Shown here piece after piece: positions 31,747 through 58,586 of a DNA stretch of 64,000 nucleotides. The position numbers and the translations under genes were made by a program. Source of the stretch: Gossypium raimondii (taxonomy: Eukaryota; Streptophyta; Magnoliopsida; Malvales; Malvaceae); the NCBI RefSeq assembly GCF_025698545.1, contig NC_068572.1, positions 3,906,001 through 3,970,000 on the forward strand, written 5' to 3'. Below the pieces are notes generated by a model. It saw nothing but the letters and a program-made list of their open reading frames with translations. It searched no databases and was not told where the DNA came from. The first letter of the stretch is position 1; every line of letters begins with the position of its first letter.

Positions 31747-31765
31747 TCACTGCACCAAAATAGGC

Positions 31766-32335
31766 TTTTAGCGGCGCTTTTAGTGGCGTTTGGATAAAAA
31801 AACGCCGCTAAAAATCGAGCATTAGCAGCGCTTTACAAAAAACACCGCTAAAGATCTAGCATTAGCGGCACTTTAAAGCGCCGCTAAAAATGAGAATTAG
31901 CGGCATTTTTTGAGAAAATGCCGCAAAAACCTAAGACCAACGACATCATTTTTTGACCTTTCGGGGCTTTAACGGCATTTTTGGAGAAGCGCCGCTAATG
32001 CTCCGGGCTTTAACGGCGTTTTTTGAGAAGCGCCGCTAATGCTCCGGGCTTGAGTGGCGTTTTTTGAGAAGAGCCGCTAATGCTCCGGGCTTTAGCGGTG
32101 TTTTTAGAGAAAAGCCGCTAATGCTCCGGGCTTTAGCGGTGTTTTTAGAGAAGTGCCGCTAATGCTCAGGGCTTTAGCGGCGTTTTTGGAGAAGCGCCGC
32201 TAATGCTTAGGGCTTTAGCGGCGTTTTTGGAGAAGCGCCGCTAATGCACAAGGCTTTAGCAGCGTTTTTAGAGAAGCGCCGCTAATGCTCAGGGCTTTAG
32301 CGGCGTTTTTAAAAAAGCACCGCAAAAACATTTTA
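31766..32335. repeat. Left subterminal hairpin array of element P
   Basis: About ten units with a period near 41-60 bp, each of the form TTTAGCGGCGTTTTTGG..AGCGCCGCTAATGCTCAGG, so each unit can fold as a short hairpin. Such arrays are expected transposase-binding sites in CACTA elements. Confidence 0.85.
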
Positions 32336-32619
32336 TCTGTCTAATTACTATTTAAATTGTTTATTTATATTAATTAAAATTCAATTTATTTTTAATTGGA
32401 TATTTTTTAAAAATGGATAAATTTCAAATAATGACACGTATAAATAAATTGAAATAAAAACATAGAAAAATATTTGTTAAAAATGGAAAATTAAAATATT
32501 ATTATTTAAAATAATTTTAAAATTTTTGGGTACATGACTGATTGATTTTTAATTTATGTATTAAATAATTTCATATATAATTGTAAAAGATACGATAGTA
32601 TTAATTTTAAAATATTTAA

Positions 32620-33245
32620 TTAATTATCATTATAGTTTAGGGTTTAATATATATGATTTAGGGTATATGGTTAATTTAGGATTTAAGGCCGGTTTAGGAG
32701 TTACAATTTTAAGGTTTATAGATTATGGAATTAGGGATTATGGATTAGGGGTTCTAGTTTAAGGGTTGTGATTTAGGGGTTAGGGTTAGAGATTAAGAGT
32801 TAGAGATTTAGGGTTTATAAATTTAGTGTTAGGTTAGGATTTAGGGTTTAGATTAATTAGTGTGCTTTAATTTATATTACATAAGGTTTAGGGGTTAGGG
32901 GTAGGGATTTGAGTTAGGGTTCAGAGTTCAGATTAATTAGTATTTTTTAATTTATATATTAAATAAGGTTTAGGGGTCAGTAGTTAGGGGTTAGGGGTTT
33001 GTGGTTAGGGGTTAGAGCTTAGAGCTTAGAGCTTAGAGGTTAAGAATTAGTGATTTAAGGTTTAGGGATTCGGGGCTGGGTTAAGGTTTTGTTTAGATTA
33101 ATTAGTATTTTTTAATTTATATATTAATTAAGTTCTTATATAATTGTAAAAGAGGGGTTAGGGGTTTTAGGGTTATGTTTATGATTTAGGGCTTAAGAGA
33201 TAGGGGTTAAGGATTTAGGGTTTAGATTAATCGGTGTTTTTTAAT
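32620..33245 (+). repeat. Degenerate telomere-like TTTAGGG-rich block
   Basis: Many TTTAGGG, TTAGGGG and GGTTTAG words in one orientation, interspersed with repeats of AATTAGTATTTTTTAATTTA. A shorter version occurs at the equivalent place in element Q (53328-53445). Confidence 0.6.
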
Positions 33246-33878
33246 TTATATATTAAATAATTTCTTATATAATTGTAAAAAGATAATATTTATTTTAATA
33301 TATTAAAATTATGATTATAGTTTAAATTATTTAAGAGATAATAGATCAATTATATATATTAAATAGTTTAGGATTTAAGGTGTACTTTAGATTTGTTAAA
33401 TGATGAAATTTTATACAATTAATTAATGTTTTATATTGAAAATATTTAATCTAAATTTAGATTAAATGGTTTAAACCATTTGATATATTTAAATATTAGA
33501 TTTAAAAATTGATAAATAAATAAATTCATGTAATGATTGATCATATGGATAAGTAAGTATCTATTTTGGATAGGACCAATTTATAACAAATAAAATGAAA
33601 TACAAAAACTAAAATCATTCCATATTGAACATGCAGCAAAATAGCTATATTTTAGTTAGCAAAATAAAAGATTTTTAGTAGAGCAAAACAACGTCGTTTT
33701 GTTCAAAATAAAATAATTTTTCATGACATTTTTATGGTAAATGCCGCAAAAAATAAGCAATAGCGGCGATTTTATAAAAAAAACATTTTACTTTTAGAAA
33801 TCGCGTCATTTTACAAAAAAAACTTCCCCTATGAAATCCTTAATCTTCCCAGGGCTGACAATGTTTTGAACTTCTTTT

Positions 33879-34050
33879 GATACCCGTTCCCTTTCCATTC
33901 ACGAAGTCCTTTCTCCTATTACCCTTTACCCTCTCCCTCTGACCCTATCAAAGGAACCCAGCTTTCCATCTCGCTACCAGACGACGATGTTTTAAACTCT
34001 TTTTTCATCGTTTTCTCTACTTCCCCTTCTTCTTCTGCTCTCCAATGGCT
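33879..34050 (+). pseudogene. Captured fragment resembling leukotriene A4 hydrolase N-terminus
   Basis: Frame 1 from 33879 reads DTRSLSIHEVLSPITLYPLP and a neighbouring frame continues DPIKGTQLSISL and then FIVFSTSPSSSSALQWL. Together these resemble, from memory, the N-terminal domain of plant leukotriene A4 hydrolase/M1 aminopeptidase. The frame shift between the parts makes it a pseudogene fragment. It lies inside CACTA element P and is read as captured host sequence. Confidence 0.5.
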
Positions 34051-35760
34051 AACTAACAAATACGAGTCCCCACCCATTCCACCAAACATGTTTATCTTGT
34101 CTTTCAGAACAAAAGAAACAACACCACCAGCCTAAGCCTAAACAGATCCGAGCTTTCTATTTTGGCTAAACCAAGACTATATCTTGTTCTATACTGTTGG
34201 TGGGTCTGTTTGTTTCCAAAGATAACTTCACTGCATTTTCTTTGCTTTTTCCCAATGGATGTTTTCTAGCTTCTTTCTTTTGGAGATTAGTTAGCTTCTT
34301 TTCTAGGTTTTTATTTCTATTTGGGGTTCTTTTCTTTTGTCGTTCTTTTCTGGGTTTAAATTTGAAACTTAGATTGCTTTTCTGGATCTGCTACTTCTTT
34401 TATTTCTTATTCCATTCTTCAGGCATATATGTTTGATTATGTGTTAAGGCATGATACATTGAGACCTGATATATGTATATGTATGTATTATTCACCTCAT
34501 TACCTTTGCAAGGATTAAAGATTGTTGAAATTGATATTGGAAACATAAATTCTCTAAGTGGGAATTTGCAGTCAAATAGGTAGAACGAACACCTGACCAA
34601 GGTATTAAAGAATGGTTTCTTACAAGTTATTAATAACCTGGAAAGACAGGTGATAAACTGTGTGGTTTAGGACAACTTTATGCATTTATATATATTAATA
34701 GGAATTCATTATATCCACATAAAATTGTTAGCTTTGTCTACATTATTCTTCTTTTAAACTATTTTTATTTTAAATGTTAATATTTTTTTTGAGTTTTAAT
34801 TTGTACTATTTTAATCAAATAAATATAATTTTGAATGTAAAAAAATTAAAGAAAATAAAAATCACCATCGTTATTATTCTAATATTTTTAAAATAAAATC
34901 ATGGTACAAAAGAGAAAAGATCAGCTGTTCTCAAGTTAATAATTTATATTATGTCTATTACTTTTGGTTCTTCGATTGTCGTTCTCTATAGACCGTAGAG
35001 GAAATGTAATTTATTTTCTTGGTTACATGTCACAATGTTTTATAAATTGGATATAAGTGACTATTTAATCTTTGCATTTTAAGGAGGAACTTATCTGTTA
35101 TTTATTTTAGAATTGTAACATTGAATTCCTCACTTGTATTAGATTTGATGAACTGGAGACAGCATTGATGGAGATGGTTAAGCTAGGGTAAACTGGAATA
35201 TGTTATTCAATTTGCCAAAATTTACAGTCAATTGCCGACTTGTTTTTAGAGATAATTATAAAACTATGTAATTCCTATCATGCAAATCATTTTGCTTGCT
35301 TTTACCTGGCACCTTAGGCTTCTTCATGAAATTTGCATTACCAGAACTTGCTAAAAAACCCGTGTTTCTGGTTTTCATGAATCATGAATTGGAAGTTGCT
35401 AGTTTTCTTAGCAGTTTGAAGATTATTTTCTTCTATCCATATGAATGTCTTTATGATAATGATGCTTGTAGATTTGCGGAACAAAATGCAGCTGCACAGA
35501 GATATTCTGTTGAAGTTTTGTGTGATTGATCGGATGTGTATGCTGGCTTTCATCAACTACTTTCGAAGGCCTTACTAGGAATTGAAATGGTGTGCAAAGA
35601 GATTGCTTCTTTTGATCTGATTTTTCGATATAAATACTGGACAAAGTATGGATATTTTACTGCTGTTAGTAAAATGGGATTCTCTTCTTAGGATCTTAGT
35701 TTCTTCAGTTGTATTAGACTCAACAATGGCTTGCATTGCATTGGTGTTGATTTTACCTAA
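34051..35760 (+). other. Remaining cargo of element P, origin not recognised
   Basis: Compositionally this is gene-like: pyrimidine-rich stretches, a possible exon at 35140-35185 (FDELETALMEMVKLG), another at 35330-35400 (FALPELAKKPVFLVFMNH) and another at 35470-35600 (RFAEQNAAAQRYSVEV). I do not recognise the source proteins. No long uninterrupted frame exists. Confidence 0.35.
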
Positions 35761-36000
35761 ATTTCGAGGTTTACAATTTTTAATTTTTATTAATTATTTA
35801 CATTTTTTCATGTTTATTAATTTTTATTATTATTTAAGCTTCCTTTATTTGCCTTCTTTTATCATTTTCATACAAAATTTAATTTAAATAATATTTTTTA
35901 TTTATCCTTAAAAGTATATTTAAAAAATAAATTAAAATATAATATTTATCATAAAAATAAATATTATTTGATTAAAATAATTTTTTTGCATGATATGTTT

Positions 36001-36186
36001 TTAGGGGCGTTTTTGCGAGAAGCGTCGCTAAAGGTTTGTTCTATAGCGGTGTTTGTGAGGTCGTGGTCTATAGCGGCGTTTATTTCTAAAAGCACCGCAA
36101 AAGTTAGCGACGCGTTCAATACCGGCGTTTTTAGCGGCGCTTAAAGGCCTAAAAAAACGCCGCTAAAAGCCTGTTTTGGTGTAGTG
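36001..36186. repeat. Right subterminal hairpin array of element P
   Basis: Units such as GCGTTTTTGCGAGAAGCGTC and TAGCGGCGTTTATTTC..AGCACCGC, ending in AACGCCGCTAAAAGCCTG and the terminus GGTGTAGTG. Confidence 0.8.
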
Positions 36187-37058
36187 GTAATTTGTTTGAT
36201 TATTAAAGTTTCAATTTTGCTGGCTATGTATTGTTCGAATGTATCGAGTTAGGCTCAATTGCGAAACTGTCCATCCCATGTTTTTTTTCCCAATCCGTTA
36301 GTTTAAACAACAATCATATAGTTTTTTATTCATTAATTTCACATAAAATATATAAATTGGTCATCACCAATTCCCTTGAATAGGTCTTTTAAATTTCAAT
36401 ATCTCATACGAAATCATTCTGCTCACTAATCTCACACAATGTATACACAAATTATCATAATTTTAATAACACAACTCCACCAACTATCACAAAAGCTGAA
36501 CTCAAAATCTTTATAAATACAAAATTTTGTATTTTTTAATCCCTATGAAGCAAAGATCTAAAGGGAAATAATCAAACATTCAACTTAATTTCATTATTTA
36601 TTTATAGAACCTTATGTTTTTGCAATCCAACATTAAATCCAAAGGGGATCTTATAGGAGCTAGGAGACCTTCAACCCTAAAATTTTGAGAAATTATCATT
36701 AAGGCTTTTTATAATAACCTTAAATCCTAAGCAAAGGTTTGAAGATGAATAAGATGTTTTGCAAATAAAGCCATGAGTTTACTAATCTTCTATGCCTCCT
36801 CTATGTTTGTATTCCAAACTTGTGTTAAAAAATGAATACACCCCTCTTCCGTTTATTCTTTTCTTTCTTCTTTAGCAATTAATTTGTTTTGTATGGAAAT
36901 ATTTATTTATTTGGTCATATCTTTGGAAAACATTCTTGAATCATCTTGGCTGGATCTTTAGTGACAAATTATTTATAAATGACAATATAATATGGCTTTC
37001 TATTATAATTCAATTAGATTATATAAAATGTTTTCAATTCATTCTGCTACTCTTAACA
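36187..37058 (+). other. CRK-cluster intron/spacer homologue
   Basis: This matches the intron between the two ectodomain exons of CRK B (about 44495-45295), for example ATTAAAGTTT..AATTTTG.TGGCT and GAGTTAGGCTCAATTG. It therefore belongs to the CRK repeat unit, cut on its left by element P. No gene of its own. Confidence 0.65.
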
Positions 37059-39906
37059 AAAGCTTTAGGTGCTAGACTCGGGTAGTTTCACAACCAGCAG
37101 TACATATGCCAAAACTTTGACCATATTCTCCATTCTCTCCCACACAAAGTCTCATTGCATTCCTCCCTTTATCATTTGTTGTAACAAAAGAATAGTCAAT
37201 TCGACTGTTGAGTAAGTGGTTAGCCAATCAATAGAAGGATCTGCTCCTTTGATTGGATTTAGTTAGCCATCTTCTTTTGTATTCATTTCAGCCTAAGTAG
37301 ATATGGTTGCCAGCACACTTAGTATCTAGTCTAAACAATCTTCCACTATATGAGTTGCAAGCTTTGCTCTCTTGCTCCTTAAGGCTAGTGGAGTTTTTGT
37401 GTTTCTTGTTACGTGTCCTTCCACGAGTTGATGATAAGATCTCTTTTTTCTGGGAAAAAATTATCAGATGAAACGAAACAAAGCAAATCAATATGGATCC
37501 CACTTGGTGCAAGCTTATCAGCTACTCTAGGACTAGCTCTGTTTTCTGCTTGTGGTTTCTTTATCTGGAGAAGGAGAAACGTTCAAGGTATGCACTATTA
37601 GATCATGCTGGCATTTACAAATTTATGTTATAATCTTATAGCCAATCACATTTTGTTTTATTACAGAGGATAAAGGCCAAGAAGTTCGATTACTTGACTT
37701 GGTAATGGGAAGTGTTCCTCGTGGGAACTCAAGCGAAAATTTTGATCTACAAAATGTAGGAAGGTCGCAGGAGTTTCCTTCAATTCAATTGAATATTTTA
37801 CAAGCAGCAACCAATAATTTTTGTGATGAAAATAAGCTAGGACAAGGTGGGTTTGGCCCTGTATACAAGGTAATTATGGTTAGGAACTAAAATAACGTGG
37901 TTAAGAAAAAATGCATGTTCATATGTTAATTTGTAGGGCACACTAGCGGATGGAAAAGAAATTGCAGTTAAAAGGCTCTCAAGAACTTCTGGTCAAGGGC
38001 TGCTTGAGTTCAAGAATGAGGTCATGTTAATTGCCAAATTACAGCATAGGAATCTTGTGAGGCTGTTAGGATGCTGCTTAGAGAAAAACGAAAAGTTGCT
38101 TGTATATGAATTCATGCCCAACAAAAGCCTTGACGTGTTCCTATTCGGTTTGATCCTTCAACCTTGAAATAACAACATTATCTTATACATACACAAAATA
38201 AATTTGAATATTTAACTTGTCATTTCTTTTTCTCTCCTTCTTGAGCATTTGTCAGATTCGAGTTTGCCTGCCCAACTAGTTTGGCAAAAACGATTCAATA
38301 TTATTAAAGGAACTGCCCGAGGTATCATGTATCTGCATGAGGATTCTCGTCTTAGAATTATCCACAGAGACCTTAAAGCAAGTAATGTTTTACTTGACCA
38401 TGAGATGAATCCGAAAATTTCGGACTTTGGTATGGCAAAAATTTGTGGCCGAGATCAGAATGAAGCAAATACAAATAGAGTAGTCGGAACATAGTAAGTC
38501 TATTAATTGGTTCTTCCCAACTTATTAACTCATAAGCTTACAGGGTTACATCTACTTATTTTCTTCACCATTAGTTGTTGCCAACTTCAACTTATCCATA
38601 TTCATCGACCAGTTCTGAGAAATATGTCCTCTACATCAATATCATATAAACTAGAAGGACCCCATGCAAGCAATGAATCTTAGTATGTTTCATGGTTAGT
38701 GATTAGAAACAGAACTTGGTTTTGTTACTGAGAGTATCTGATATGTGATTGATATACACTGAAAATCAGTTCATGTTTGTAAAGTTTCTTATGATTATCT
38801 AATTTTGATTTAGTTTTTCTTCATTGTTTCTTATAAACTACAACAGTGGATACATGGCACCCGAGTATGCTATGGAAGGACTTTTTTCTGTCAAATCTGA
38901 TGTTTTCAGTTTCGGTGTCCTTTTGGTGGAGGTTATAAGTGGAAAAAGGAATAATGGGTTTCATCTTTCAGAATACGGTGAAAGCCTCCTGACTTTTGTA
39001 TGTTTTCTTATCCTATCAAAATTTAAATAATAGATTAATACCATGTTATGTATACTACGCTAATTCTAAGTAAGAATCGTAGGCGTGGAAACTATGGTCC
39101 AAAGGAGAAGGAATGGAGTTACTGGATAAGCATCTTGTTGAGTCGAGTGTGCCCAATGAGGTTGTTGGTGTTTAAGGGCAGCAGCAAGCTGCTTTGATCT
39201 TGCTTGGACAGCAAGCCTCAAGGCTTGCAGAAGAAACAAACGCAGAAAGAAAACAGAAAAGAAGCTTGCGAGTGGAAAGCAGAAAAGAAAAGAGAGAATT
39301 TGAATGAAAAACAACCTGAAATTTTTCATTAACTTGAGAATAAGGCCTTAAGCCATTACATATACCAGCTAACTTGTAAAACAAACAAGTTATCACCTAA
39401 TCAACTACCGAACACCACTAATATGCATTGAAACTTACAAGATTAGCTTGCATAATAGCTTTACTGATTTTTAGTCAATCAACATCAAAACATCTACCTA
39501 CTAAGTTCAAAATGAAGTAGATTACAAAAGGATTAAGGAACAACTAAATGTGGCAACTAGATCAGAACTTTGAGCTTCAGCTGCTGCACACCATGGCTCG
39601 ACTGCATGCTGACTTTCCTCTTGCATGGCCACCTTTGTTGATCAGCACCTGGCATGGGAACTAACCTCAACAGAGGTGCTTAAATGCATCCAAATTGGGT
39701 TATTGTGCGTGCAATCAGATCCGGCAGACAGACCGACTATGTCAACAGTGGTTGCAATGTTAGGAAGCGACACCATAACAGTTCCTCTACCAGCGAAACC
39801 TGCATTTTATGTTGGACGTTTTATTGCAGAATCAGTTCAACCCAATTCAAGTGATAAAATATGTTCTGTTAATGAAGTTACGATTTCAAACATGTCACCT
39901 CGGTGA
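37059..39906 (+). pseudogene. CRK A: receptor-like kinase pseudogene without ectodomain
   Basis: Positions 37059-37160 keep a frameshifted scrap of the DUF26 ectodomain (TTTAGGTGCTAGACTCGGGT). The rest of the ectodomain is deleted, and the sequence resumes in the region upstream of the transmembrane exon. The downstream exons match CRK B in size: 37468-37587 (transmembrane), 37667-37869, 37937-38147, 38256-38493, 38847-38997 and last exon 39083-39162 plus 39678-39906. Kinase motifs are intact ([41 protein letters not shown]), with KICG where B has KIFG. A 510-bp solo LTR interrupts the last exon; removing it and one TSD copy restores the 309-nt length seen in B. With no signal peptide or ectodomain it cannot be a normal receptor. 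Confidence 0.88.
39163..39672 (-). mobile_element. Solo LTR (510 bp) inside the last exon of CRK A
   Basis: Read on the minus strand it runs TGTTGAGGTTAG to ACACCAACA. The flanking direct repeat is GAGGT at 39158-39162 and 39673-39677; CRK B has a single GAGGT there (48210-48214). It is related to the solo LTR at 42734-43220, which lies in the opposite orientation (shared GTCAGCATGCAG near one end and CACCAACA at the other). Confidence 0.9.
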
Positions 39907-40123
39907 TTGATTAGTCATTCCATCTTCAAGTTTTTCACTATTACAAGATATGATAGATTCTAAAAATTTTGTTAAGCCGCTCTTTTAGCTAAATGTTCTG
40001 CAACATTCCAGCAAAACACAGGGAGATGTTCTTCCGAGTTTTCTGTATTGGTCTTTGATATATATGTAAAAAATGACAAAGGGGTATGAAAAATTGGTAT
40101 GAAGCTGACTTTTCAAATCCAAA

Positions 40124-42015
40124 GTGGGAACGGTGGGAAAATCATTCCATTACCGAAGACAGAGCAGCAAAAACGAGTCTATTTGTTCAAAACTGACTTT
40201 TCAACGAGTATGGATGAGAAGGTACAATTTTCGTTTCATTTTTCTTGGATACAATTAATTTCACCACTTTGCTAAGCTCAAGGTAGACTTTGATTTCGAC
40301 CAAGTCAAAAAATAAAACCCGAAAGAAAAGTCCTTGGACTTTATTATCTGTCAACTTCAACCTCCTAAAGGAGGAAACATGGAATTATCTCATTACAAAA
40401 TGGTAATACACAATTAGTAGCTCTGGTGATTCCAGAGCACAACCTCCAAAATGAGGTTTCAATTTCGGGCATACTTCCTCGATAAGGTTTGAATATTCTG
40501 AAAACCATCATCCTATATGTGGTTCAAATAAAATCAAATTATCAATGCTTTCCATATGCAAAGTAGGGGCTGAAGTCCCATTAGAATCTACCGTATTAAG
40601 TATTAACTAGCTCAATGATTCTGAAAACTGGCCTATAACAGGCACGTAGTATTGTATGAACAATGAAACCAAAGGAACTTCAAAAATAGTGAGAACAGTA
40701 GAAAAATCATTCCATTGCCGCTGATAGTCAGTGTTGGATTTTTTTATTACCGAACGGTGGGAACGGTGGGAAAATCATTCCATTACCGAAGACAGAGCAG
40801 CAAAAACGAGTCTATTTGTTCAAAACTGACTTTTCAACGAGTATGGATGAGAAGGTACAATTTTCGTTTCATTTTTCTTGGATACAATTAATTTCACCAC
40901 TTTGCTAAGCTCAAGGTAGACTTTGATTTCGACCAAGTCAAAAAATAAAACCCGAAAGAAAAGTCCTTGGACTTTATTATCTGTCAACTTCAACCTCCTA
41001 AAGGAGGAAACATGGAATTATCTCATTACAAAATGGTAATACACAATTAGTAGCTCTGGTGATTCCAGAGCACAACCTCAAAATGAGGTTTCAATTTCGG
41101 GCATACTTCCTCGATAAGGTTTGAATATTCTGAAAACCATCATCCTATATGTGGTTCAAATAAAATCAAATTATCAATGCTTTCCATATGCAAAGTAGGG
41201 GCTGAAGTCCCATTAGAATCTACCGTATTAAGTATTAACTAGCTCAATGATTCTGAAAAACTGGCCTATAACAGGCACGTAGTATTGTATGAACAATGAA
41301 ACCAAAGGAACTTCAAAAATAGTGAGAACAGTAGAAAAATCATTCCATTGCCGCTGATAGTCAGTGTTGGATTTTTTTATTACCGAACGGTGGGAACGGT
41401 GGGAAAATCATTCCATTACCGAAGACAGAGCAGCAAAAACGAGTCTATTTGTTCAAAACTGACTTTTCAACGAGTATGGATGAGAAGGTACAATTTTCGT
41501 TTCATTTTTCTTGGATACAATTAATTTCACCACTTTGCTAAGCTCAAGGTAGACTTTGATTTCGACCAAGTCAAAAAATAAAACCCGAAAGAAAAGTCCT
41601 TGGACTTTATTATCTGTCAACTTCAACCTCCTAAAGGAGGAAACATGGAATTATCTCATTACAAAATGGTAATACACAATTAGTAGCTCTGGTGATTCCA
41701 GAGCACAACCTCCAAAATGAGGTTTCAATTTCGGGCATACTTCCTCGATAAGGTTTGAATATTCTGAAAACCATCATCCTATATGTGGTTCAAATAAAAT
41801 CAAATTATCAATGCTTTCCATATGCAAAGTAGGGGCTGAAGTCCCATTAGAATCTACCGTATTAAGTATTAACTAGCTCAATGATTCTGAAAAACTGGCC
41901 TATAACAGGCACGTAGTATTGTATGAACAATGAAACCAAAGGAACTTCAAAAATAGTGAGAACAGTAGAAAAATCATTCCATTGCCGCTGATAGTCAGTG
42001 TTGGATTTTTTTATT
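40124..42015 (+). repeat. Three tandem copies of a 633-bp unit downstream of CRK A
   Basis: Unit starts are at 40124, 40757 and 41390, each beginning GTGGGAACGGTGGGAAAATC and ending near GATAGTCAGTGTTGGATTTT. Copies differ by single-base indels (for example CCTCCAAAA against CCTCAAAA), so the triplication is recent. CRK B has only one copy (48664-49275). The junction ATTACCGAAC shares ATTACCGA with the sequence about 20 bp into the unit. No coding frame is conserved. Confidence 0.92.
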
Positions 42016-42289
42016 AAAAGTTTAGGGTTTAATTAAAATTTTTAAAAAAATTTGGAGGATTTAATGAAAATATTTAAAAATATTTTAAGAATATTTTAAC
42101 ATTATAACTTTTGAAAATAATAAATTTTATTATTTCATTTATTAATTTAGATCATATACATATTTTCTTCCTTGGATTTGAAGTATAATTTAGATTTGCA
42201 GTTATTGGTTGGATTTGATGTTATAGGAAATTATGTTGACAATTCGGGTTCTATATGAATGAAAATTGGATGTTAAAAATATGCTAAAG

Positions 42290-42695: not shown

Positions 42696-42733
42696 TTTTC
42701 CTGACTGCAGCAACATTACATTAAATTAGTAAG

Positions 42734-46400: not shown

Positions 46401-48444
46401 CTATATGAGTTGCAAGCTTTGCTCTCTTGCTTCTTAAGGCTAGTTGAGTTTTTGTGTTTCTTGTTACGTGTCCTTCCACGAGTTGATGATAAGATCTCTT
46501 TTTTCTGGGGAAAAATTATCAGATGAAACGAAACAAAACAAACCAATATGGATACCACTTGGTGCAAGCTTATCAGCTACTCTAGGACTAGCTCTGTTTT
46601 CTGCTTGTGGTTTCTTTATCTGGAGAAGGAGAAACGGTCAAGGTATGCACTATTAGATCATGCTGGCATTTACAAATTTATGTTATAATCTTATAGCCAA
46701 TCACATTTTGTTTTATTACAGAGGATAAAGGCCAAGAAGTTCAATTACTTGACTTGGTAATGGGAAGTGTTCCTCGTGGGAACTCAAGCGAAAATTTTGA
46801 TCTACAAAATATAGGAAGGTCGCAGGAGTTTCCTTCAATTCAATTGAATATTTTACAAGCAGCAACCAATAATTTTTGTGATGAAAATAAGCTAGGACAA
46901 GGTGGATTTGGCCCTGTATACAAGGTAACTATGGTTAGGAACTAAAATAACGTAGTTAAGAAAAAATGCATGTTCATATGTTAATTTGTAGGGCACACTA
47001 GCGGATGGAAAAGAAATTGCAGTTAAAAGGCTCTCAAGAACTTCTGGTCAAGGGCTGCTTGAGTTCAAGAATGAGGTCATGTTAATTGCCAAATTACAGC
47101 ATAGGAATCTTGTGAGGCTGTTAGGATGCTGCTTAGAGAAAAACGAAAAGTTGCTTGTATATGAATTCATGCCCAACAAAAGCCTTGACATGTTCCTATT
47201 CGGTTTGATCCTTCAACCTTGAAATAACAACATTATCTTATACATACACAAAATAAATTTGAATATTTGACTTGTCATTTCTTTTTCTCTCCTTCTTGAG
47301 CATTTGTCAGATTCGAGTTTGCCTGCCCAACTAGTTTGGCAAAAACGATTCAATATTATTAAAGGAACTGCCCGAGGTATCATGTATCTGCATGAGGATT
47401 CTCGTCTTAGAATTATCCACAGAGACCTTAAAGCAAGTAATGTTTTACTTGACCATGAGATGAATCCGAAAATTTCGGACTTTGGTATGGCAAAAATTTT
47501 TGGCCGAGATCAGAATGAAGCAAATACAAATAGAGTAGTCGGAACATAGTAAGTCTATTAATTGGTTCTTCCCAACTTATTTAACTCATAAGCTTACAGG
47601 GTTACATCTACTTATTTTCTTCACCATTAGTTGTTGCCAACTTCAACTTATCCATATTCATCGACCAGTTCTGAGAAATATGTCCTCTACATCAATATCA
47701 TATAAACTAGGACCCCATGCAAGTAATGAATCTTAGTATGTTTCATGGTTAGTGATTAGAAACAAAACTTGGTTTTGTTACTGAGAGTATCTGATATGTG
47801 ATTGATATACATTGAAAATCAGTTCATGTTTGTAAAGTTTCTTATGATTATCTAATTTTGATTTAGTTTTTCTTCATTGTTTCTAATAAACTACAACAGT
47901 GGATACATGGCACCTGAGTATGCTATGGAAGGACTTTTTTCTGTCAAATCGGATGTTTTCAGTTTCGGTGTCCTTTTGCTGGAGATTATAAGTGGAAAAA
48001 GGAATAATGGGTTTCATCTTTCAGAATGCGGTGAAAGCCTCCTGACTTTTGTATGTTTTCTTATCCTATCAAAATTTAAATAATAGATTAATACCATGTT
48101 ATGTATACTACGCTAATTCTAAGTAAGAATTGTAGGCGTGGAAACTATGGTCCAAAGGAGAAGGAATGGAGTTACTGGATAAGCATCTTGTTGAGTCGAG
48201 TGTGCCCAATGAGGTCCTTAAATGCATCCAAATTGGGTTATTGTGCGTGCAATCAGATCCGGCAGACAGACCAACTATGTCAACAGTGGTTGCAATGTTA
48301 GGAAGCGACACCATAACAGTTCCTCTACCAGCGAAACCTGCATTTTATGTTGGACGTTTTATTGCAGAATCAGTTCAACCCAATTCAAGTGATAAAATAT
48401 GTTCTGTTAATGAAGTTACGATTTCAAACATGTCACCTCGGTGA
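43467..48444 (+). CDS. CRK B: cysteine-rich receptor-like kinase with doubled ectodomain exon
   Basis: Eight exons join in frame: 43467-44229, 45297-46004, 46523-46642, 46722-46924, 46992-47202, 47311-47548, 47900-48050, 48136-48444 (900 aa). Exon 1 carries a signal peptide (about residues 1-24) and two DUF26/Gnk2 domains; exon 2 is a second two-domain ectodomain lacking a signal peptide. All four show C-x8-C-x2-C ([52 protein letters not shown]). Both ectodomain exons end in phase 1, so either can splice to the transmembrane exon ([20 protein letters not shown]). The kinase has the glycine loop [11 protein letters not shown], Lys610, HRDLKASN (Asp707) and DFG (Asp725), so it is an RD serine/threonine kinase at the plasma membrane, probably in stress or defence signalling. 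Transcripts using only exon 1 are possible; exon 2 could also be a relic of a neighbouring gene. Confidence 0.82.
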
Positions 48445-48663
48445 TTGATTAGTCATTCCCATCTACAATTTTTTCACTATTACAAGATATGATAGATTCT
48501 AAAAATTTTGTTAAGCCGCTCTTTTAGCTAAATGTTCTGCAACATTCCAGCAAAACACAGGGAGATGTTCGTCCGAGTTTTCTGTATTGATCTTTGATAT
48601 ATATGTAAAAAAATGACAAAGGGGTATGAAAAATTGGTATGAAGCTGACTTTTCAAATCCAAG

Positions 48664-49275: not shown

Positions 49276-49349
49276 AAAGTTTAGGGTTTAATTAAATTTT
49301 TTTTAAAAAATTGGAGGATTTAGTGAGAATATTTAAAAATTTTGGTAGG

Positions 49350-50589
49350 TTAAATTAAAACTTTTAAAGGCTTAATGAGAACCAACAAAAAAAATTTAAG
49401 GGATCTAATTAAAAATTTTAAATTTTTTGAAAGACTTAATGAAAATTTTCAAATTTTTTGAAGGGGCCTAACTCTAATTTATTATATTTTTAATGTCTAA
49501 AAAGAATTTTCAAAATTTTGTGGGAGACCCCCTAGGGCTTCATTATCATCCACCTCCAATAGTAGTACCATTTTCAGCACCAAAACGAGCGAGGACATCT
49601 AAAAGATTAAACTATTTTGAAAATATTAACTTTCAATTAATCAATGTTTTTTTTTTGAATAAGTTATTAAAAAATACTTAAATAATAAAATAAATGTAGA
49701 TTTAAAATGTGAAAACCTAGAAAGTTTAGAAAAGTAAATACTTTTATAATTTAAATAACTCTAAATATTAAACATTATTAATAAAAATATTTAAGATTTT
49801 ATGTTATATAACACTGCATTCTACATTTTTTATTTGATAACTTGTGAAGTGGGATAATGTCTACTAAAACAAATTATATTAATAGGATAATTATACTAAT
49901 TAGTAATTTTATCACATATGTATGCACATAGAATGTATTTAGAACAAAAGTAAGTATAGTGAAAATAACATTTATTAAATAATGAAATGTCTAGTTTGAA
50001 ATTAATACTAAACATATATGCAATACGTGTGAAATTAAAATAAATAAATAAGTTTAAATATAAATAAAAAATTAAATGGTTAAATACTTGTTATTTAGAA
50101 TGATAAATGTATTCCAATTGTACTACACATATACTTTTGTAAACTACTTATTTAAAATATATGTAATAATGCAACAAGTAATTTGAAATTAATAATAATA
50201 TACAAACTTAAAAGGGATAAATCTTAAAATTATATATGAACTTTGATTTAATGTGTAATTGTATACATGAATTTTAACTTGGTACAATTATATACGTGAA
50301 ACTCAAATTATGGTTCAAATGTATAGTAGAAATTTAATCATACATATTTAAAGAAATAAATACATCAATTTATTTTTATATTGGATAAATATAATTATTT
50401 ATGTATGCAGTATATAAATATAAAATAATGTTATATCAATAATTGTGTTAATAATTTACAAGAATTGAATCAGATAAAAATTTATATGTAATTACACTTA
50501 AATCAACTTAAAATAAAATAAAATAGTTTAATTTCTCAATTAAAAGAATATTTTCCATTAACTAGACGCAGGTGAGAGACTAAGGCATT
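49350..50589. other. AT-rich spacer, no gene seen
   Basis: Low-complexity AT-rich DNA with no convincing frame. It contains the third copy of the dispersed repeat (50212-50520). Confidence 0.5.
50212..50520 (+). repeat. Dispersed AT-rich repeat, copy 3
   Basis: GGGATAAATCTTAAAATTAT at the start and TGAACTTTGATTTAATGTGT match copy 1 at 19636 closely. Confidence 0.5.
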
Positions 50590-50803
50590 ACAGACCAAGT
50601 TTCGTCTGACTTTTAAAACCTTCAAGACCTTTTACTTTAATGGGCGCTCTTTGACTCTTTCTCCAACTCAATTCCCCACCTCTTCTCTGCCATGAAAAAT
50701 CTAGAATAATAAGTTCCCACTTCTTTCTTTTGGGTTTCCTTTCCTTCAAATTATACAACCTCAAAATGTAGGTTAAATTTACAGCTCTTTCTTCAATTCT
50801 CTC
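50590..50803 (+). pseudogene. CRK C: promoter and first codons of another CRK copy
   Basis: This matches the upstream region and start of CRK B (about 43289-43502) almost base for base. The first codons ATG TGG have become ATG TAG at 50767-50772, so the frame ends after one residue. The match stops at about 50803, directly against the gypsy fragment. One W-box (TTGACT) remains at about 50652. It is the broken 5' end of a third CRK copy. Confidence 0.8.
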
Positions 50804-51843
50804 TCATCTCATACGCCTCACAACCCTTACGAACCAACTTCTCGACCCTCAGAGCAGAAATCACATTTGATAGATAATTTCGACACTCCCCTATAAGCAC
50901 CACCTCATCCCCCTTCACAGTTTTTAGTACCACCCATTTAGTAGCACAGTCCAAATTCACTTGATGCTTAACCAGCCAATCCATACCCAGTATTAAATCG
51001 AATTCTCCAAAAGAAAGTTCCATTAGGTCCGCCAAAAAGATGGTTCCTTGAACCTCCAACGGTACATCTCTGAACAATCTGTTCACCCTAACTGACTGCG
51101 CTAAAGGACTTAACACAATAATTTCACTCGCAGTGGTTTCAACCATTATACCCAAAGTCTCAGACACCGAGCATGCTATATATGAATGTGTAGACCCAAC
51201 ATCAATCAGTGCAGTATAAGGTACATTATAGATAAAGAACGTACCAGTAATAATATATGGGGTGTCTCCATCCTTCGGGGACGTTGAGCATAAACCAGAG
51301 CTGGCTGCCTTGCCTCAGTATGACCAGCACCTCTGCCCGGTGCTCCACGACCACGACAAATACCATTTCCATCTTTGGCCTGACCACGGCCTCTCGGTGG
51401 CTGCTGAACACCTCTCGGCAGTTGAACAATACCCCGACCTGAAGCTTGTATCTGCTCAGGTCTCCGTAGACAATCTCTGATATGGTGCTCTAATGATCCG
51501 TACCTCAAACATGCTCCAATCCTTTTCCAGCACTCGCCATAATGGCATCTACCACAGTCAACACATATCTGCTGTCCAGTAGCAGCAATAGGGGCCCCAA
51601 CTCTGACCGACCCATCCATTCTAGCCTTTTTGTTCAGCCTCTGAGCGGAACTCTAGGGCTCAGAATCTCTCTTATTCCTACTATTTTCTCTGTTCAGACG
51701 CTTAATACGCTTCACCTCCTCAACGATCTTCGCCTTGCCCACTAGTGTGGCAAAGTCTTGCTCCCTCTGTGGAGCTATCAAAACTCTCAGACTATCCCTG
51801 AGGTCGTCCTTGAATCGAACACACCGCTCATAATTGGTTGTCA
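50804..51843 (-). pseudogene. Ty3/gypsy gag-protease remnant
   Basis: On the minus strand, from 51843 down, it reads as the end of the gag capsid region (RFKDDLRDSLRVLI), a zinc knuckle (CLRYGSLEHHIRDC) and a retropepsin-like domain (LIDVGSTHSYIAC, LILGMDWLVKHQVNLDC). The knuckle has Tyr where the second Cys is expected, and the protease has DVG in place of DTG, both likely inactivating. There are in-frame interruptions near 51640 and 51200. Its 5' part is cut by CACTA element Q at 51844 and its 3' part abuts CRK C at about 50803. Confidence 0.85.
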
Positions 51844-51862
51844 CACTACACCAAAATAGGCT

Positions 51863-52380
51863 TTTAGCGGCGTTTGGATAAAAACGCCGCTAAAGATCGA
51901 GCATTAGAGGCGCTTTACGGAAAAAACCACTAAAAATAAGCATTAGCGGCGTTTTCCAGAAAGCGCCGCAAAAAACCTATGCCCAACGAAGCCGTTTTCT
52001 GAGCCTTCGGGATTTTAGCGGCGTTTTTGGGAAAGCGCCGCTAATGGTCAGAGATTTAGCGGCGTTTTTTGGAAAGCGCCGCTAATGATCAGGGCTTTAG
52101 CGGCATTTTTGGGAAAGCGCCGCTAATGATCAGGGCTTTAGAGGCGTTTTTGGGAAAGCGACACTAATACTGAGGGCTTTAGCGTCGTTTTTGAAGAAGC
52201 GCCGCTAATACTTAGGGCTTTAGCGGCATTTTTGAAGAAGCGCCGCTAATACTCAGGGCTTTAGCGGCGTTTTTGAAGAAGCGCCGCTAATACTTAGTGC
52301 TTTAGCTACTTTTTTGAAGAAGCGTCGCTAATTCTCTATTTTTAGTGGCGTTTTTTAAAAAGCGCCGCTAATGCTCAGGG
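51863..52380. repeat. Left subterminal hairpin array of element Q
   Basis: About nine units of TTTAGCGGCGTTTTTGG..AAGCGCCGCTAAT(G/A)(C/T)TCAGG, parallel to the array in element P but with its own unit variants. Confidence 0.85.
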
Positions 52381-53327
52381 ATATAATATAATCTAAAATA
52401 TTTGTTAAAAATGGAAAAATTAAAATACTATAAGTTCTTTTAAACAAAATATATGGCATAACCTTATATATGGAATAAAAGGCGGCATCACGTGTTAAAC
52501 TAATTCAATTATTATTTAAAAATTTATATAAATAAAATAGACATAATGATTTATTTATCTTTCTAACTTTACAAAAAATTATTTCAATCCTTTATTTAAT
52601 TTTTATCTTTTAACCCTTAAATTTATATTATTTATTAAATCAGCTCAAAATAGATGGGAAAAATTATTCTTTATTAACTTTACTAAATATGGAAGCCAAA
52701 GGCCCTGAAATGAAAACAATTTTCACCTAAGCGTTTTATAACTTATACACTTTTAAATTAATAATGGTAAAATTACATGTTAATCCCATAAAATGATAAA
52801 AATTTTATTTAATCCTTATAAAATATAATTAAAATGGTAAAATTAATTTTTAACTATCCTAAAATATACAATTTAATTCCATCTCCTCCAAAAAAATAAA
52901 AATAAAAGAAAAACATTACCGTTAATCTAGTTCATAGGAGGCTGAAAGTGATACCCGGTTCGATGAAGTTTTACAGTAAGTGCAGTTTTAGATTGTAAAT
53001 GTGGATGAACCTTATGAAATGCTTCAACGACACCATTCTTACTTATTATCTCACAAAAACACCCAATTATTAAATAAACTAACAAAATATTTTCTGTAAA
53101 CTCCTTTAAAATTTCGAAAGCCGAATGTTGAAAGAGGATGGTGATTCATTTATATAGGACTGAAATTTAACAATTTCAATATATATATTTTAAAATGTTT
53201 AGATAAGATAGATTTTTATTTGAATTTACCAGTAATTTATAATATCAACATTAAATCTACAATTCTTGATTTTCTTTTTTTAAAATAATTAAAATTTTAT
53301 TCTTATAGTATTTAAATAATTAGGGAT

Positions 53328-53445
53328 TATTATGGTTTAAGGGTTGGGGTTTAGGGGTTAGGGATTAGGGGATAGGAGTTTAGGGTTTATGTTTTATGAT
53401 TCACGGTTTAGGAGATAAGGGTTAGGGGTTTAGGGTTTAGATTAA
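53328..53445 (+). repeat. Telomere-like block in element Q
   Basis: GGTTTAGGGGTTAGGGATTA and similar words, followed by TTAGATTAATTAGTATTTTT, in the same relative place as the longer block in element P. The rest of 52380-53930 is AT-rich without genes. Confidence 0.6.
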
Positions 53446-54172
53446 TTAGTATTTTTAATTTATATATTAAATAATTTCTTATATAATTGTAAAGAGATAA
53501 TATTAATTTTAATATATTAAAATTATGATTATAGTTTAAATTATTTAAGAGATAATAGATAAACTTTATATATATTAAATGGTTTAAGATTTAACGTTTA
53601 CTTGATATTTGTTAAATGACACGTAAAGAATATTTGAAAGTAAAAACATAGAAAAATATATGTTAAAATGGAAAAAAATTTAAAATAATATTATTTAAAA
53701 TAATTTTAAAGTGTTTTGGGTATATGACTGATTAGGTTTTTAATTTATATATTAAACAATTTATTATATAATTGTAAAGAGATAATATGAATTTTAATTT
53801 ATTAAAATTATCATTAATATAGTTTTTAAAGTTTTTTCTCTTTGCTTTAAAATTTTTGTTTTAGTTTTTGTTTTCTTACATAAAAATTATATAAAAATTT
53901 TAAAATTTATCTAATTCTTTTAAATATTACTTAGGTAAGCAATAGCGGCGTTTAAACAAAAAAAAAAAAGTCACAAATATGTATTAAATTTTTTCAAAAG
54001 ATACCACAGAAATTTAATTTTTTTAGTGGCGTTTTTTTTTAAAACGCCGCAAAACCCATAATCAATTGTAAAGAAAATGGGGGGAAGATGAGGGGGGAAG
54101 ATATTGAAACAAAACAATTAAAATTAAATCAACCAAAGAAATCCCTAGAAGCCTAAAGAAAAGGGGGGGAAG

Positions 54173-54361
54173 ATGAGGCCGAGGCCGACACCGATGGAAT
54201 TCGTGAGGGACGCAGACGACCAAGGTTCAGCCATGGAAGTCGACGGTGTTGACACACCGGAGATCTTCGGCGAAGGCGTCATCGCTTCCGACAACAAGCT
54301 CGCCTATGCCGATTTCTTCAACAACTTCGAAGACGATTTTGATGACTCCGATATTGACTAA
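54173..54361 (+). CDS. SMAP1: Small acidic protein 1-like protein (SMAP1), 62 aa
   Basis: The single-exon frame of 62 residues ends in the acidic block FFNNFEDDFDDSDID, preceded by SDNKLAYADFF. This is the diagnostic C-terminus of plant SMAP1, a 62-residue nuclear protein needed for normal response to the synthetic auxin 2,4-D in Arabidopsis, linked there to AXR1/COP9-dependent signalling. Start ATG at 54173; an upstream ATG-like repeat of the leader (GGGGGAAGATGAGG) occurs at about 54080 as well. The frame is complete and the length matches the family, so selection may still act on it or capture may be recent. Tyr in ADFF's upstream Ala-Tyr-Ala (usual Ala-Asp-Ala as I recall) is a small deviation. 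It lies within CACTA element Q, so it may be a transduplicated copy. Confidence 0.8.
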   Translation: MRPRPTPMEFVRDADDQGSAMEVDGVDTPEIFGEGVIASDNKLAYADFFNNFEDDFDDSDID

Positions 54362-54550
54362 AAAAGAAGAAGAATCGTTTGTACGTCTCTTCTCTTCTCT
54401 GTCTGTCTTTCTTTCTCTTCTTTGGCTTAGCCATGTCTCTGCTTTCTCTATAATTTCCTTAGCAAAGAAGAGAAAGCAAAGAAATCAAAGTAAACAAATG
54501 AGAACCCACCAAAAAATTCAAATCTCTTGTTAGTTTTTTTTTTTTTTGGT

Positions 54551-54573
54551 GCGTGTGTGTGTGTGTGCGCGCG
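54551..54573. repeat. (GT)n/(GC)n microsatellite
   Basis: GTGTGTGTGTGTGTG followed by CGCGCG, between the SMAP1-like gene and the syntaxin-like fragment. A (TA)n run lies at 54949-54974. Confidence 0.8.
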
Positions 54574-54625
54574 TTCAAAAAAAGCGAATTATTTTTGGGT
54601 TTTAAGCTGTTGAACGGTGAAGAAG

Positions 54626-54708
54626 ATGACGGTTGCAAATAGTTATGATTTGTGGAAAAAAGATGCCTTCTTTTCTGCAGCAGAAGAGGTTCAAGAATCT
54701 GCTGATAT
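54626..54708 (+). pseudogene. Captured first exon resembling a syntaxin-like (SYP6 N-terminal) gene
   Basis: From the ATG at 54626, 27 codons read MTVANSYDLWKKDAFFSAAE then EVQESAD. They end at a good donor (AT/GTATGT at 54708/54709). This resembles, from memory, the start of plant t-SNARE-related proteins with a syntaxin 6 N-terminal domain. No second exon of that gene was recognised downstream, so it is an isolated exon inside element Q. Confidence 0.55.
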
Positions 54709-54709
54709 G

Positions 54710-57210
54710 TATGTTATTTTTTTTAATTTTAAATTTTATGCCTTTTTTTTTTAAATTTACTGGGGTTTGGTTCGTGACATGGGTTTTATTTGTGCTTCTT
54801 AGATGTTTGTTTAATTTCATATAATTGACTGTTCAATTATTTAGTTTTTTTTTTGGGGGGCGGGTTTAAAGGTTCCTTTTTTGTTGTTGGGTTTCTGCTA
54901 AATGTGCTATATTTCCTAGTTTTCTTGCTGATATGTATGCTCATGCTTATATATATATATATATATATATATATCTGTTCAACTAGGGGAAAACATATAA
55001 TTAAAGGTTCCATTTTTTGGTGGAAGGTTATATGCTTGTGATTTGAAAACTTCAACGAAAATTTTGTTATGCTTAATGTTATGAATCAACCACTTTATAA
55101 GGTTTTTGTATATATAAACAAGTTTAAGCTTCAAACATATATTTTTTTAGAATAATTATTTCATGAAGTCTTTGAAGTAATTTAATGGCTTCTGCTGCCC
55201 TTGTCCACCATGGATATTTGTTGACAGGTGACCTGTAATGGAACCATGAAGTTTCTATAAAGCATTTTCATAATTGCTCGACTTTTCTGTGTCACTTGCA
55301 ATGCAAACTAAAGGTCTACATTATAGCCATGCTGGAATTTGTTTATTTGTAATTTGTTATTTTTCTGTGTTTTTTTATTTGTAATTTGTTATGTTTTCTG
55401 GGTTTTGCTTATAATGTCTGCATTAATATTCATTTCACATTTTTGTTTTTCCCCCTTTGTAAAGATATTTGCTTTTGTTTCTTATTCAAAGTTCTAAACT
55501 AATTTTTTCCCTGTAATTTCATTTTTAGAATCAAAGTTTCTTTTTTTTTTAATTATTTTATTAACAACATTGACTTTTAATATTTATTTTGATAGTTTTT
55601 TTTGGGGGAGGTGTGGGTTGGGGGGCGGGTCAGCATATTTGCTTTTGAACATAAGATTGATTCTACCTGTGTTATGTATTTGCCAAATTCCAGTTTTGGA
55701 TTCAAAGTTTGTATGTGTTTCTTACCATTTTCTAAGAAATAAAAAAACATGTTATCAATATTGTCTTTGTTAAGTCTTTTTCACATAATTTTCTTTGAAG
55801 TTTGAACATTGTTTTGCTCCTTTTCATTATGGAAAAACAAATCCTTTTTCCAATTTAATCTTTGTTTTAATTATTTTATGTAATTAAATTACTCAAAGTT
55901 TCTTTCCTTTTTGATCCAAACTTTTCTTTTGTACAAAATTACTCTCTTTCTTAACTTCTTATATTATATATATGTTTTATAAGATTAGCTTTAGCTCTCA
56001 GTTTTCAGTTTCACATTGAGTTATTTGAGCATTTTTCATATTTCTTTCTAATGTGGGACAGATTTCATTTTCTTAAAAAGAAAAAAATTATATTGTTTTC
56101 ATATTAGAGTTGATGATTATGATTTAACCTCCTCTACAATCTTTCAGTCAAGGGAAAGTAATGAAAGCTTATAGCCATGCTGGAATTAGCACCATCATCA
56201 ATTCATGGTTGTAGATATTAAATGGTCTAGGGAACACTGTGTGTTAGAATTTGTACTAACTGAATTCCTTGCAATGATCTCTTGTACTTTTAGCTAATAC
56301 AAGTTGTGCCCATTTGGCAGAGAGATGCTTGATTTTCTTGTTTCTATGTTTATGCAGAGGTTCGGTGTCAAGCAAAAGGTTCCAAGATTTGACATGCTTA
56401 TTCTGTTTCTTTCACCTACGGAATGAAATAATGAAATTATAAATTAATACATAATAGACTTATATTTTGATTTATGAAAAAATTATACATAATTAGTGAA
56501 GCTCAGTTCCTTTGTTTGAATTCTTATGCTTTAGGTAGATAAGGGTTTCTCTGTACTGCCTGAAAACATTTTGTACTTCAAAAATAATATGCCACATGAA
56601 AATAAAATAAAAAAGAATCAAATATAAAAAATTCGAACATAGAAGAAGTTTAATCAATTTGCTTGCAAAAACTCTTCAAGGTCTATCTCTTTTCATCTTC
56701 TAGGTATGTGTTTTCTTGGTTTTATATATAAATTCTTTTCTTTTGACAAAGAACTTGAGGTTTAATTAAATTTGACTAAGGACTTGGGGTTGAACTAATT
56801 TGATTCTTGTTTTTTATTTTATTTTATTTTATTGGCAAGAAAGATAAAATATTTTATTTATCAACTAATCTAAAAGATTTTGAATTCTTATGCTTTAGGT
56901 AGATAAGAGTTGTTTTTTAGTTGTTTTCTTAAATTATTTATGATTATATTAGTTGCAATAATGAAAAAATAATTTCATTTATGTACTAGTAGGTTAAATG
57001 GTAAATTCTTTTATATAGCTGCTTTGGCTCGTAAGCTTACCTGGTTACGTGGTAACTTGCACAGATTCTAGTTTTTCTTTTTCTGGGAATAGGTAGATCG
57101 TTTTACATTAGTCAATTATGTATGCCCCTGGGTAGTTTTACCTTAATGATTTGTTTTATTTGTAGTCCATTACTTGAAATCAGTTTTTGAGCTAGTTTTC
57201 TTATTTTCAG
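54710..57210. other. Non-coding cargo of element Q
   Basis: T-rich, intron-like sequence. Possible short exon scraps occur near 55190-55250 (following ATGGCTTCTGCTGCC) and 56360-56400 (after a GCAG acceptor, AGGTTCGGTGTCAAGC), but I cannot assign them. No long frame is visible. Confidence 0.35.
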
Positions 57211-57362
57211 GTCAGCAACACGGATCTTGAAGAAAAAAAAGCTGAAGATCAATGTTCATAGGCCTGTGTGGACAAGGGTTGTCTTTGATGAGGAAGGCAA
57301 CACACTGGCTCCACTTGCTATGTTGGCTGACAAGACGAGCGGCGATATACTGCTTGACCAAG
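57211..57362 (+). pseudogene. Captured exon resembling DEAD-box RNA helicase 32/DBP4 C-terminal part
   Basis: Between a strong acceptor (TTATTTTCAG, ending 57210) and a donor (CAAG/GTATAC at 57362/57363), one frame reads SATRILKKKKLKINVHRPV then VVFDEEGNTLAPLAMLAD. From memory this resembles the C-terminal region of plant RH32, the DBP4/DDX10-type nucleolar helicase. Only this exon is present, without the helicase core, so it cannot make a helicase. Confidence 0.55.
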
Positions 57363-58404
57363 GTATACGTAATCCCTTCTGTTGGCAAATGTTGCTGCAA
57401 TTTTTTATTTTTCTTGAAATACCTGAGTCTAGCACCCATGTTTGAATCGTGTTTGGACATGATGGGTATAGAGTTATGACCCTTCAGATTCATGGAAAAA
57501 CTTGGAAAAATTGAATATACCTGTATTGGAAAAATTGAATATATCAATGATCAATTTAATTATTATAGTGTTCTTCTTTTTCCTGTGCCTTAGTTCTCTT
57601 TTATGCTATATAAGACATTTCTATATAACGTTAAACAACAGTAGTGCAGTTAGCATGTTTCTGTTTTGCTTTTTGCAAATTAATACTATTGTTCCTTGTT
57701 AAAAAATTAAATAGTTTAGACGATCATTAGAAAGAATGCCTATTTGTAACACATGGAAGAGCTATGATTGAGATTGTTTGTTAGTATAGTTCAACCTGCA
57801 ACTAAAGCTGCACATAATTGTTTGTTATATTTTTTTTTTTGAGCCTTAATGGCTATATATATTTTTCATTTTAAACATCTCTATTGTTTACCAAGTTGGT
57901 TGGCTTATTTGATCATTTGGTTTTGCATCCTTTAGATATTGAAGGTGTGGTGGATTCAATCTCTTCAAGCTGGAAAAGCCAAGGCTTAGCACTTTTTCAA
58001 AGTAGAGTGTTATTTAATGTTGTATTCCATGGTCGTTTATCTTAGTCAGAACTTGAATTAGGTGTTATTGAAACAGGGTTTTGTAGCTACCTTGTGTACT
58101 AGCTTCTTTAATCATGATTGTTAATTATTACGTGTTTTGGAGCTTCTTTTATATTTGGCCTAGTTAATATAGATCAGATGAGCTGTGAGGTAGATTGCTG
58201 ATTTATTTAAACATAATATTTTAATTCTAAATTTAAATTCATTAATTTTTATATTTATCTTTAAAGTTAAAATTTTAATAGAAAATTTAATTTAATTAAT
58301 TTTTTTATCCTTAAAATTATATAGTTTAAAGTTTAAATTTCAAAAATAAAATAAAATAAAATATTTATTATAGAAATAAATATTATTTAATTAATTTTTT
58401 TAAA
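57363..58404. other. Remaining cargo of element Q, no exon recognised
   Basis: T-rich, intron-like and AT-rich DNA between the helicase-like exon and the right hairpin array. The short open frames look like chance frames. Confidence 0.4.
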
Positions 58405-58586
58405 AGCTATGCTTTTAGTGGCGTTTTCGAAAAAGTGCCGCTAGCAGCGTTTGTGGAAAAAGCGTCGCTAAAAGTCCTGGTCTTTAGCGGCGTTTGTGAA
58501 AAAAGTGCCGCTAAAGGTCCTGGTTTTTAGCGGTATTTTTTCCGGCGCTTATCAAAGCGCCACTAAAAACCTGTTTTGGTGTAGTA
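58405..58586. repeat. Right subterminal hairpin array of element Q
   Basis: Units such as TTTAGTGGCGTTTTCG..AAGTGCCGCTAGC and TTTAGCGGCGTTTGTG..AAGTGCCGCTAAAGG, ending in GCGCCACTAAAAACCTG and the terminus. Confidence 0.8.

Follow-up and report, generated by a model that had tools for sequence, protein, structure and literature searches.

A 64,000-nucleotide window of the Gossypium raimondii genome (the whole stretch analyzed here, C8:3906001-3970000, free of N) contains a block of 26,839 bp in which 15,657 bp of DNA carrying cysteine-rich receptor-kinase (CRK) genes is enclosed by two CACTA transposable elements, E1 on the left and E2 on the right. Pfam comparisons of the enclosed DNA identify kinase domains, DUF3403 ends, and two first exons that each hold a pair of Stress-antifung (DUF26) stretches. 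The terminal motif CACTACACCAAAAYAGG has four matches in the window when up to three mismatches are allowed, compared with 0.39 expected, and these four copies bound two complete elements in direct orientation. In both elements, subterminal repeats with a 41-bp period lie near the left end, and the termini are those of CACTA elements despite one substitution in the last five bases of each outer end (CACTG at 31748-31752 and TAGTA at 58582-58586); the inner termini are perfect. Read from left to right, the four flanks are ATT (left of E1), GTA (right of E1), TCA (left of E2), and ATT (right of E2).

An earlier, sequence-only reading of the window had proposed that two same-family, same-orientation CACTA elements bracket a CRK cluster, with a common ATT flank at the outer ends and different flanks at the inner ones. 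All four ends lie where they were placed by that reading, with the limits of the elements now refined to those in Table 1, and the flanks are as it described. The term "same-family" holds with a qualification. E1 and E2 are alike only in their ends, in the left subterminal stretch (79% over 510 bp), and in a handful of interior blocks, one of which is 89% identical over 254 bp, the remainder being unlike, so that the two are best classified from their sequences as members of one CACTA family but of different subfamilies. Within E2, exon-like open stretches occur at 54172-57362, and parts of the element match separately at most of the other genome places scored; E2 looks like a member of a Pack-CACTA lineage whose subfamilies have internal blocks in common.

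The outer flanks of the block, joined with one ATT, form one continuous short interspersed nuclear element (SINE), as had been claimed when the outside sequences were described as two halves of a single element. (The label tRNA-like, suggested for this SINE by the B-box-like GGTTCGAGT, is provisional; an Rfam scan of the window at gathering scores gave no match.) A second SINE within the window (19352-19508) aligns gap-free across the join, and 39 of the 41 genome matches from outside the window, taken from the best 40 of 1999 candidates scored, run unbroken through it, with a single ATT where the window has two. Likewise, among 19 other SINE copies that were aligned, 18 are gap-free within 15 bp of the join and 17 have ATT immediately before it. 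Agreement of the two ATT flanks is weak evidence on its own, as about 2% of random flank pairs would agree by chance; chance agreement was nevertheless rejected because the SINE is continuous across the join. The target duplication of the SINE itself probably also survives on the two sides of the block, with agreement at 11 of 13 bases, a level equaled by 0.9% of random 13-mers of the window. This match is taken as supporting evidence only, because the other SINE of the window has the same four bases after its A-run as those with which the match begins. That the SINE is unbroken without the block, with one ATT, argues that the outer ends of the two elements (left for E1, right for E2) acted as the two ends of one CACTA insertion, which can be read as having entered the SINE in a single event with the usual 3-bp target site duplication (TSD). 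Two same-family elements in direct orientation around a cargo, with outer ends that have a common TSD in a once-continuous site, are among the features by which a macrotransposon is recognized, and the block has both.

The inner ends, in turn, keep the flanks of earlier insertions. This is clear for E2, which stands in a fragment of a gypsy element whose other copies cross the site; for E1, the flank is CRK upstream DNA, with the exact base identified by eye. To the right of E1, BLAST detects homology to the DNA upstream of CRK genes from 36199-36202 onward, and the GTAATT found at the right end of the element corresponds by eye to CATAGTAG-GTA-ATT at 44485-44498 of the window, where the DNA continues without an element. 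Six copies of this region on another contig, C6, were inspected. Three of them (near 57567570, 57525162, and 36595899) read through the site without E1, with small differences, and the other three diverge there, two (57532 and 36588) with different DNA on the left and one (36607) unaligned at that point. The base given for the first insertion site of E1 is likely the correct one. The missing other halves of the two inner sites do not adjoin the left end of E1 or the right end of E2.

Three observations are established by these comparisons: the outer ends stand at one ATT of a once-continuous SINE, the inner ends stand in DNA that elsewhere lacks the elements, and relatives of the CRK genes lie on another contig. 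Together they make it probable that the whole block is a CACTA macrotransposon that reached its present site by macrotransposition. The donor would have had the order E1-CRK-gypsy-E2, with two same-family elements, oriented alike, within and next to a CRK cluster, E1 having first inserted upstream of a CRK gene (flank GTA) and E2 in the gypsy fragment (flank TCA). A transposase, presumably supplied by an autonomous CACTA element, would then have brought together the two outermost ends, that of E1 on the left and that of E2 on the right, passing over both inner ends, so that everything between the outer ends was cut out, plausibly from a CRK cluster of the C6 type, and pasted at the ATT in the SINE on C8, where the 3-bp duplication would have been made. 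The junction of CRK and gypsy DNA at 50809/50810 would be an older event that preceded the move of the block. The sequence-only reading had accounted for all four flanks at once by a single transposition in which each element supplied one end, E1 the left and E2 the right. This proposal is supported by the continuity of the SINE and by the CRK and gypsy sites at the inner ends, although the composite insertion considered below, which that reading had not raised, also explains the flanks.

Table 1. Features of the block and of its target site, in window coordinates
Feature	Position	Strand	Basis
Probable 5' target duplication of the SINE (ATTAATATTTATT)	31700..31712	+	11 of 13 bases equal to 58694-58706
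Left part of the interrupted SINE, ending in ATT	31713..31747	+	Aligned with 18 genome copies and one window copy
Left copy (ATT) of the 3-bp TSD of the block	31745..31747	+	ATT here in 17 of 19 other SINE copies
E1, CACTA element, 4439 bp	31748..36186	+	Terminal motif; left end CACTG, right end TAGTG; sister C10:30904551-30910755
GTA, flank retained at right end of E1, in CRK upstream DNA	36187..36189	+	BLAST homology; GTAATT compared by eye with window 44493-44498 and C6 copies
CRK gene 1, broken; exon 1 mostly missing, 510-bp insertion in last exon	37056..39906	+	Self-comparison; Pkinase and DUF3403 in exons
Three tandem copies of a 633-bp unit, 99.8-100% identical	40124..42016	+	Self-comparison
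CRK gene 2, first exon only, two Stress-antifung (DUF26) stretches	43467..44234	+	Upstream DNA of next gene adjoins directly; Pfam
CRK gene 3, predicted; seven exon-like open stretches (two DUF26, kinase, DUF3403)	45242..48444	+	Pfam
CRK gene 4, first 44 bp, cut off; starts ATG-TAG (second codon stop)	50766..50809	+	Aligned to gene 2 and three C6 copies, all of which continue
Break, CRK gene 4 joined to gypsy with 0-1 bp of common sequence	50809..50810	.	Alignments on both sides
gypsy gag-protease fragment, cut on both sides	50810..51843	-	RVP_2; 14 of 14 aligned copies continue both ways
TCA, flank retained at left end of E2, in gypsy gag	51841..51843	+	14 of 14 aligned gypsy copies cross the site without E2
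E2, CACTA element, 6743 bp, gene-like internal DNA	51844..58586	+	Terminal motif; left end CACTA, right end TAGTA; sister C5:36719613-36726480
Right copy (ATT) of the 3-bp TSD of the block	58587..58589	+	Flank reading and SINE copies
Right part of the interrupted SINE (3' limit approximate)	58590..58693	+	SINE alignments
Probable 3' target duplication of the SINE (ATTAACATTTATC)	58694..58706	+	Match to 31700-31712

A SINE with matching outer TSDs and with foreign DNA between two elements of one family would also result if a CACTA element already present in the SINE had undergone homologous recombination with a molecule that brought in the CRK DNA and the second element, either as a circle or as an ends-out fragment; the circular version had been offered as an alternative by the sequence-only reading. 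Recombination with a circle would swap the halves of the elements, each of which would then change subfamily part way along its length. Comparison with sister elements elsewhere in the genome argues otherwise. The sister of E2 on C5, with the TSD GAT/GAT, matches it from the left end, where 0.88-0.99 of aligned bases agree in each 200-bp window and the repeat arrays differ greatly in length, through the interior (95% over 4.1 kb) to the right end (86-93%). The sister of E1 on C10, with the TSD CAT/CAT, is 88-94% identical in the left 1.8 kb, 87-98% in interior blocks, and 91% in the right subterminal part. The matching TSDs of both sisters were read at both ends; for another sister of E1, at C10:11995837, the right terminus was not found in the stretch examined. 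As the two ends of each element match the same sister, neither element appears chimeric. Recombination with a circle would moreover leave equal inner flanks, and GTA and TCA differ, so that this version is disfavored. The ends-out version would fit the sister comparisons if both crossovers fell very near the termini, a requirement that counts against it, and recombination of either kind is regarded as highly improbable.

Within the enclosed DNA, the genes are of varied completeness (Table 1) and are accompanied by a number of repeats. In CRK gene 3, a signal peptide was not identified in the sequence. The insertion of 510 bp that CRK gene 1 carries in its last exon (39163-39672) probably predates the move, because a C6 copy (57575975-57578441) aligns straight across it, with 90% identity overall and 73-76% within the insertion. 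A tandem duplication inside the cargo is 98.4% identical over 1993 bp. The triplicated 633-bp unit, of which a further single copy at 48663-49343 is about 94% like the three in tandem, represents either a very recent local amplification inside the cargo or an effect of assembly. At 42290-42690 are decayed subterminal repeats of the CACTA family of E1 and E2, with no clear terminus, which may be the remnant of a third CACTA element within the cargo. The stretch at 50209-50506 belongs to a dispersed repeat of about 300 bp, found in both orientations at many places in the genome (84-88% among the matches listed) and with related pieces at 19633-19883 and 30947-31127 of the window; it is probably a miniature inverted-repeat transposable element. 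The decayed repeats, the third CACTA-like remnant, and the tandem duplications indicate a long history for the cargo, as would be expected if a single CACTA element had entered the SINE first, with the CRK DNA and the inner ends added by later, unrelated insertions and deletions. Such stepwise growth accounts neither for the completeness of both elements nor for the position of their inner ends (right for E1, left for E2), each at a site that is free of the element elsewhere, and it is regarded as very improbable.

A more serious challenge to macrotransposition comes from the break between CRK gene 4 and the gypsy fragment. The gene continues past the break point in all three C6 counterparts that reach it, and on the other side the gypsy match begins at 50810 or 50811 in 36 of 42 non-self matches and in none of them earlier (among the best 40 of 1350 candidates scored). 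A join of this kind is predicted by the main rival explanation, composite insertion by re-replication. Here the donor order would be gypsy-E2-spacer-E1-CRK, with the right end of E2 facing the left end of E1. The facing ends would jump during S phase into an unreplicated SINE, after which both elements would be replicated a second time, each together with its own flank (CRK DNA for E1, gypsy for E2), and the two broken copies joined at 50809/50810. The outer anatomy and the TSD would be the same. The join is non-homologous, with an overlap of 0-1 bp, and parts the DNA on the side of E1 from that on the side of E2. In the maize report PMC4270019, composite insertions following reversed-ends transposition measure 14-24 kb where sequenced, each fork contributes 4.8-18.9 kb, and end-joined overlaps are 0-4 bp; the two sides of the present block, at 19.1 and 7.8 kb, are near the fork values. 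The model in that report leaves the donor flanks on the chromosome of the target, and no near-identical CRK or gypsy flank was found on C8 among the candidates scored, a negative made somewhat uncertain by the limited candidate lists and the unplaced scaffolds. The CRK relatives are instead on C6 and on unplaced scaffolds such as C192, and the join at 50809/50810 may be an older deletion. Composite insertion at the present site is for these reasons considered unlikely. Because cut-and-paste movement removes the donor, macrotransposition is preferred and the join is taken as an older event. The two processes could also have acted in succession, with a composite insertion built in or near the C6 CRK cluster, making the join of CRK and gypsy DNA, and then jumping to C8 as a macrotransposon. 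This two-step history is a rather doubtful proposition; if true, it would bear out in nature, with CACTA elements, the prediction made for maize that a composite insertion can itself move again, and it would offer a copy-then-move route by which receptor-gene clusters spread.

Relatives of the cargo are informative in this regard. Among the places scored, the closest relatives of the CRK genes are on C6 (the first exon of gene 2, 98% at 36518792; gene 3, 97% at 36583414; and the start of gene 4, 96% at 36570569), where a second CRK cluster lies at 57.52-57.59 Mb. More distant CRK-like matches occur on C5, on C10, and on the unplaced contigs C192 (79-84%) and C115 (90% over 136 bp). None of the 40 places scored is a CRK match on C8 outside the block, the sole C8 match outside it being the 300-bp dispersed repeat. 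C192 (211,902 bp) has copies resembling CRK gene 2 at 71-163 kb, as well as, at 7.8 kb, the highest-scoring other copy of the gypsy of the window among the candidates scored (89%; see also C192:8750-9000).

The sequence-only reading had further advised looking elsewhere for a donor locus in which 36187-51843 has other flanks, and none was found among the candidates scored in the assembly searched (750.8 Mb, 281 contigs). The right flank of E1 has no near-identical second copy among all 27 candidates scored, the longest match being 78% over 234 bases and the best over at least 98 bases 89%. Nor does the gypsy flank have one among the best 40 of 1350 candidates, for which the best values are 89% at full length and 90% for one part. 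The lack of near-identical second copies is as expected if the donor was cut out. A search for an excision scar with CRK upstream DNA as the query (all 28 candidates scored) revealed none, and the three C6 copies described above are continuous through the E1 site; the query ends at 44489, short of the GTA at 44493-44495, so that continuity across the site was read from the DNA of the copies themselves. Searches with the interiors of E1 (best 40 of 153 candidates) and E2 (best 40 of 420) identified no element in the C6 CRK regions or on C192. As only the best 40 candidates were scored in the repeat searches, a donor could have been missed.

Several of these results weigh against macrotransposition. 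The break between CRK and gypsy DNA inside the cargo must be attributed to an older event. The exact base of the first insertion site of E1 depends on six bases matched by eye, which are followed by an indel and which the alignment program placed elsewhere, and three of the six C6 copies inspected diverge at the site. Outside the exons, the cargo agrees with the C6 stretches compared at only 72-95%, with 42187-43186 unmatched there, and therefore no single C6 stretch is the donor. No donor locus, donor scar, or empty allele was found in this one assembly. Finally, the outer termini, which would have been used, are mutated while the unused inner ones are perfect. This requires later mutation, which would account for the substitutions and would leave the block fixed in place.

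In maize, Huang and Dooner reportedly described in 2008 the macrotransposition of Ac/Ds, in which the outer ends of linked elements act as one transposon. The block on C8 resembles that system in that its two elements are linked, belong to one family, and point the same way, and in that their outer ends would serve as those of a single transposon that carries along the DNA between them. It differs in that the elements belong to the CACTA rather than the hAT superfamily, in that the event is a natural one read from an assembly rather than produced in the laboratory, and in that the DNA carried is a receptor-gene cluster with its nearest kin on another contig. As for the maize composite insertions (PMC4270019), the likeness extends to the outer ends, the TSD, an approximately similar size range, and an internal join; the donor expected in cis was not found here among the candidates scored, and the superfamily is again different.

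Another parallel, among CACTA-type elements, is offered by Pack-TYPE acquisition (PMC8903248, PMC13317346), in which neighbors of like orientation, together with the DNA that separates them, are treated as a single element. PMC8903248 (section 9) presents evidence that neighboring Pack-TYPE elements move as one unit; in its model the inner ends are deleted or mutated, and the fragments carried in the cases of that section measure 58-280 bp. Here, in contrast, the inner ends are both intact and the 15.7-kb load includes several genes, and the combination of perfect inner with mutated outer ends is the opposite of what the Pack-TYPE model leads one to expect. The spread of receptor and resistance gene clusters to unlinked loci is a standing question, for which macrotransposition has been put forward as a hypothesis (PMC7202015). 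The block preserves the anatomy of one such probable move, including the target SINE, the duplicated ATT, two complete elements, and flanks from their earlier sites. It would extend the single-unit mobilization of neighboring elements, as in Ac/Ds and in the short loads of Pack-TYPE elements, to a CACTA pair with several kinase genes, and it illustrates one way in which defense-type gene clusters could be carried to new chromosomes.

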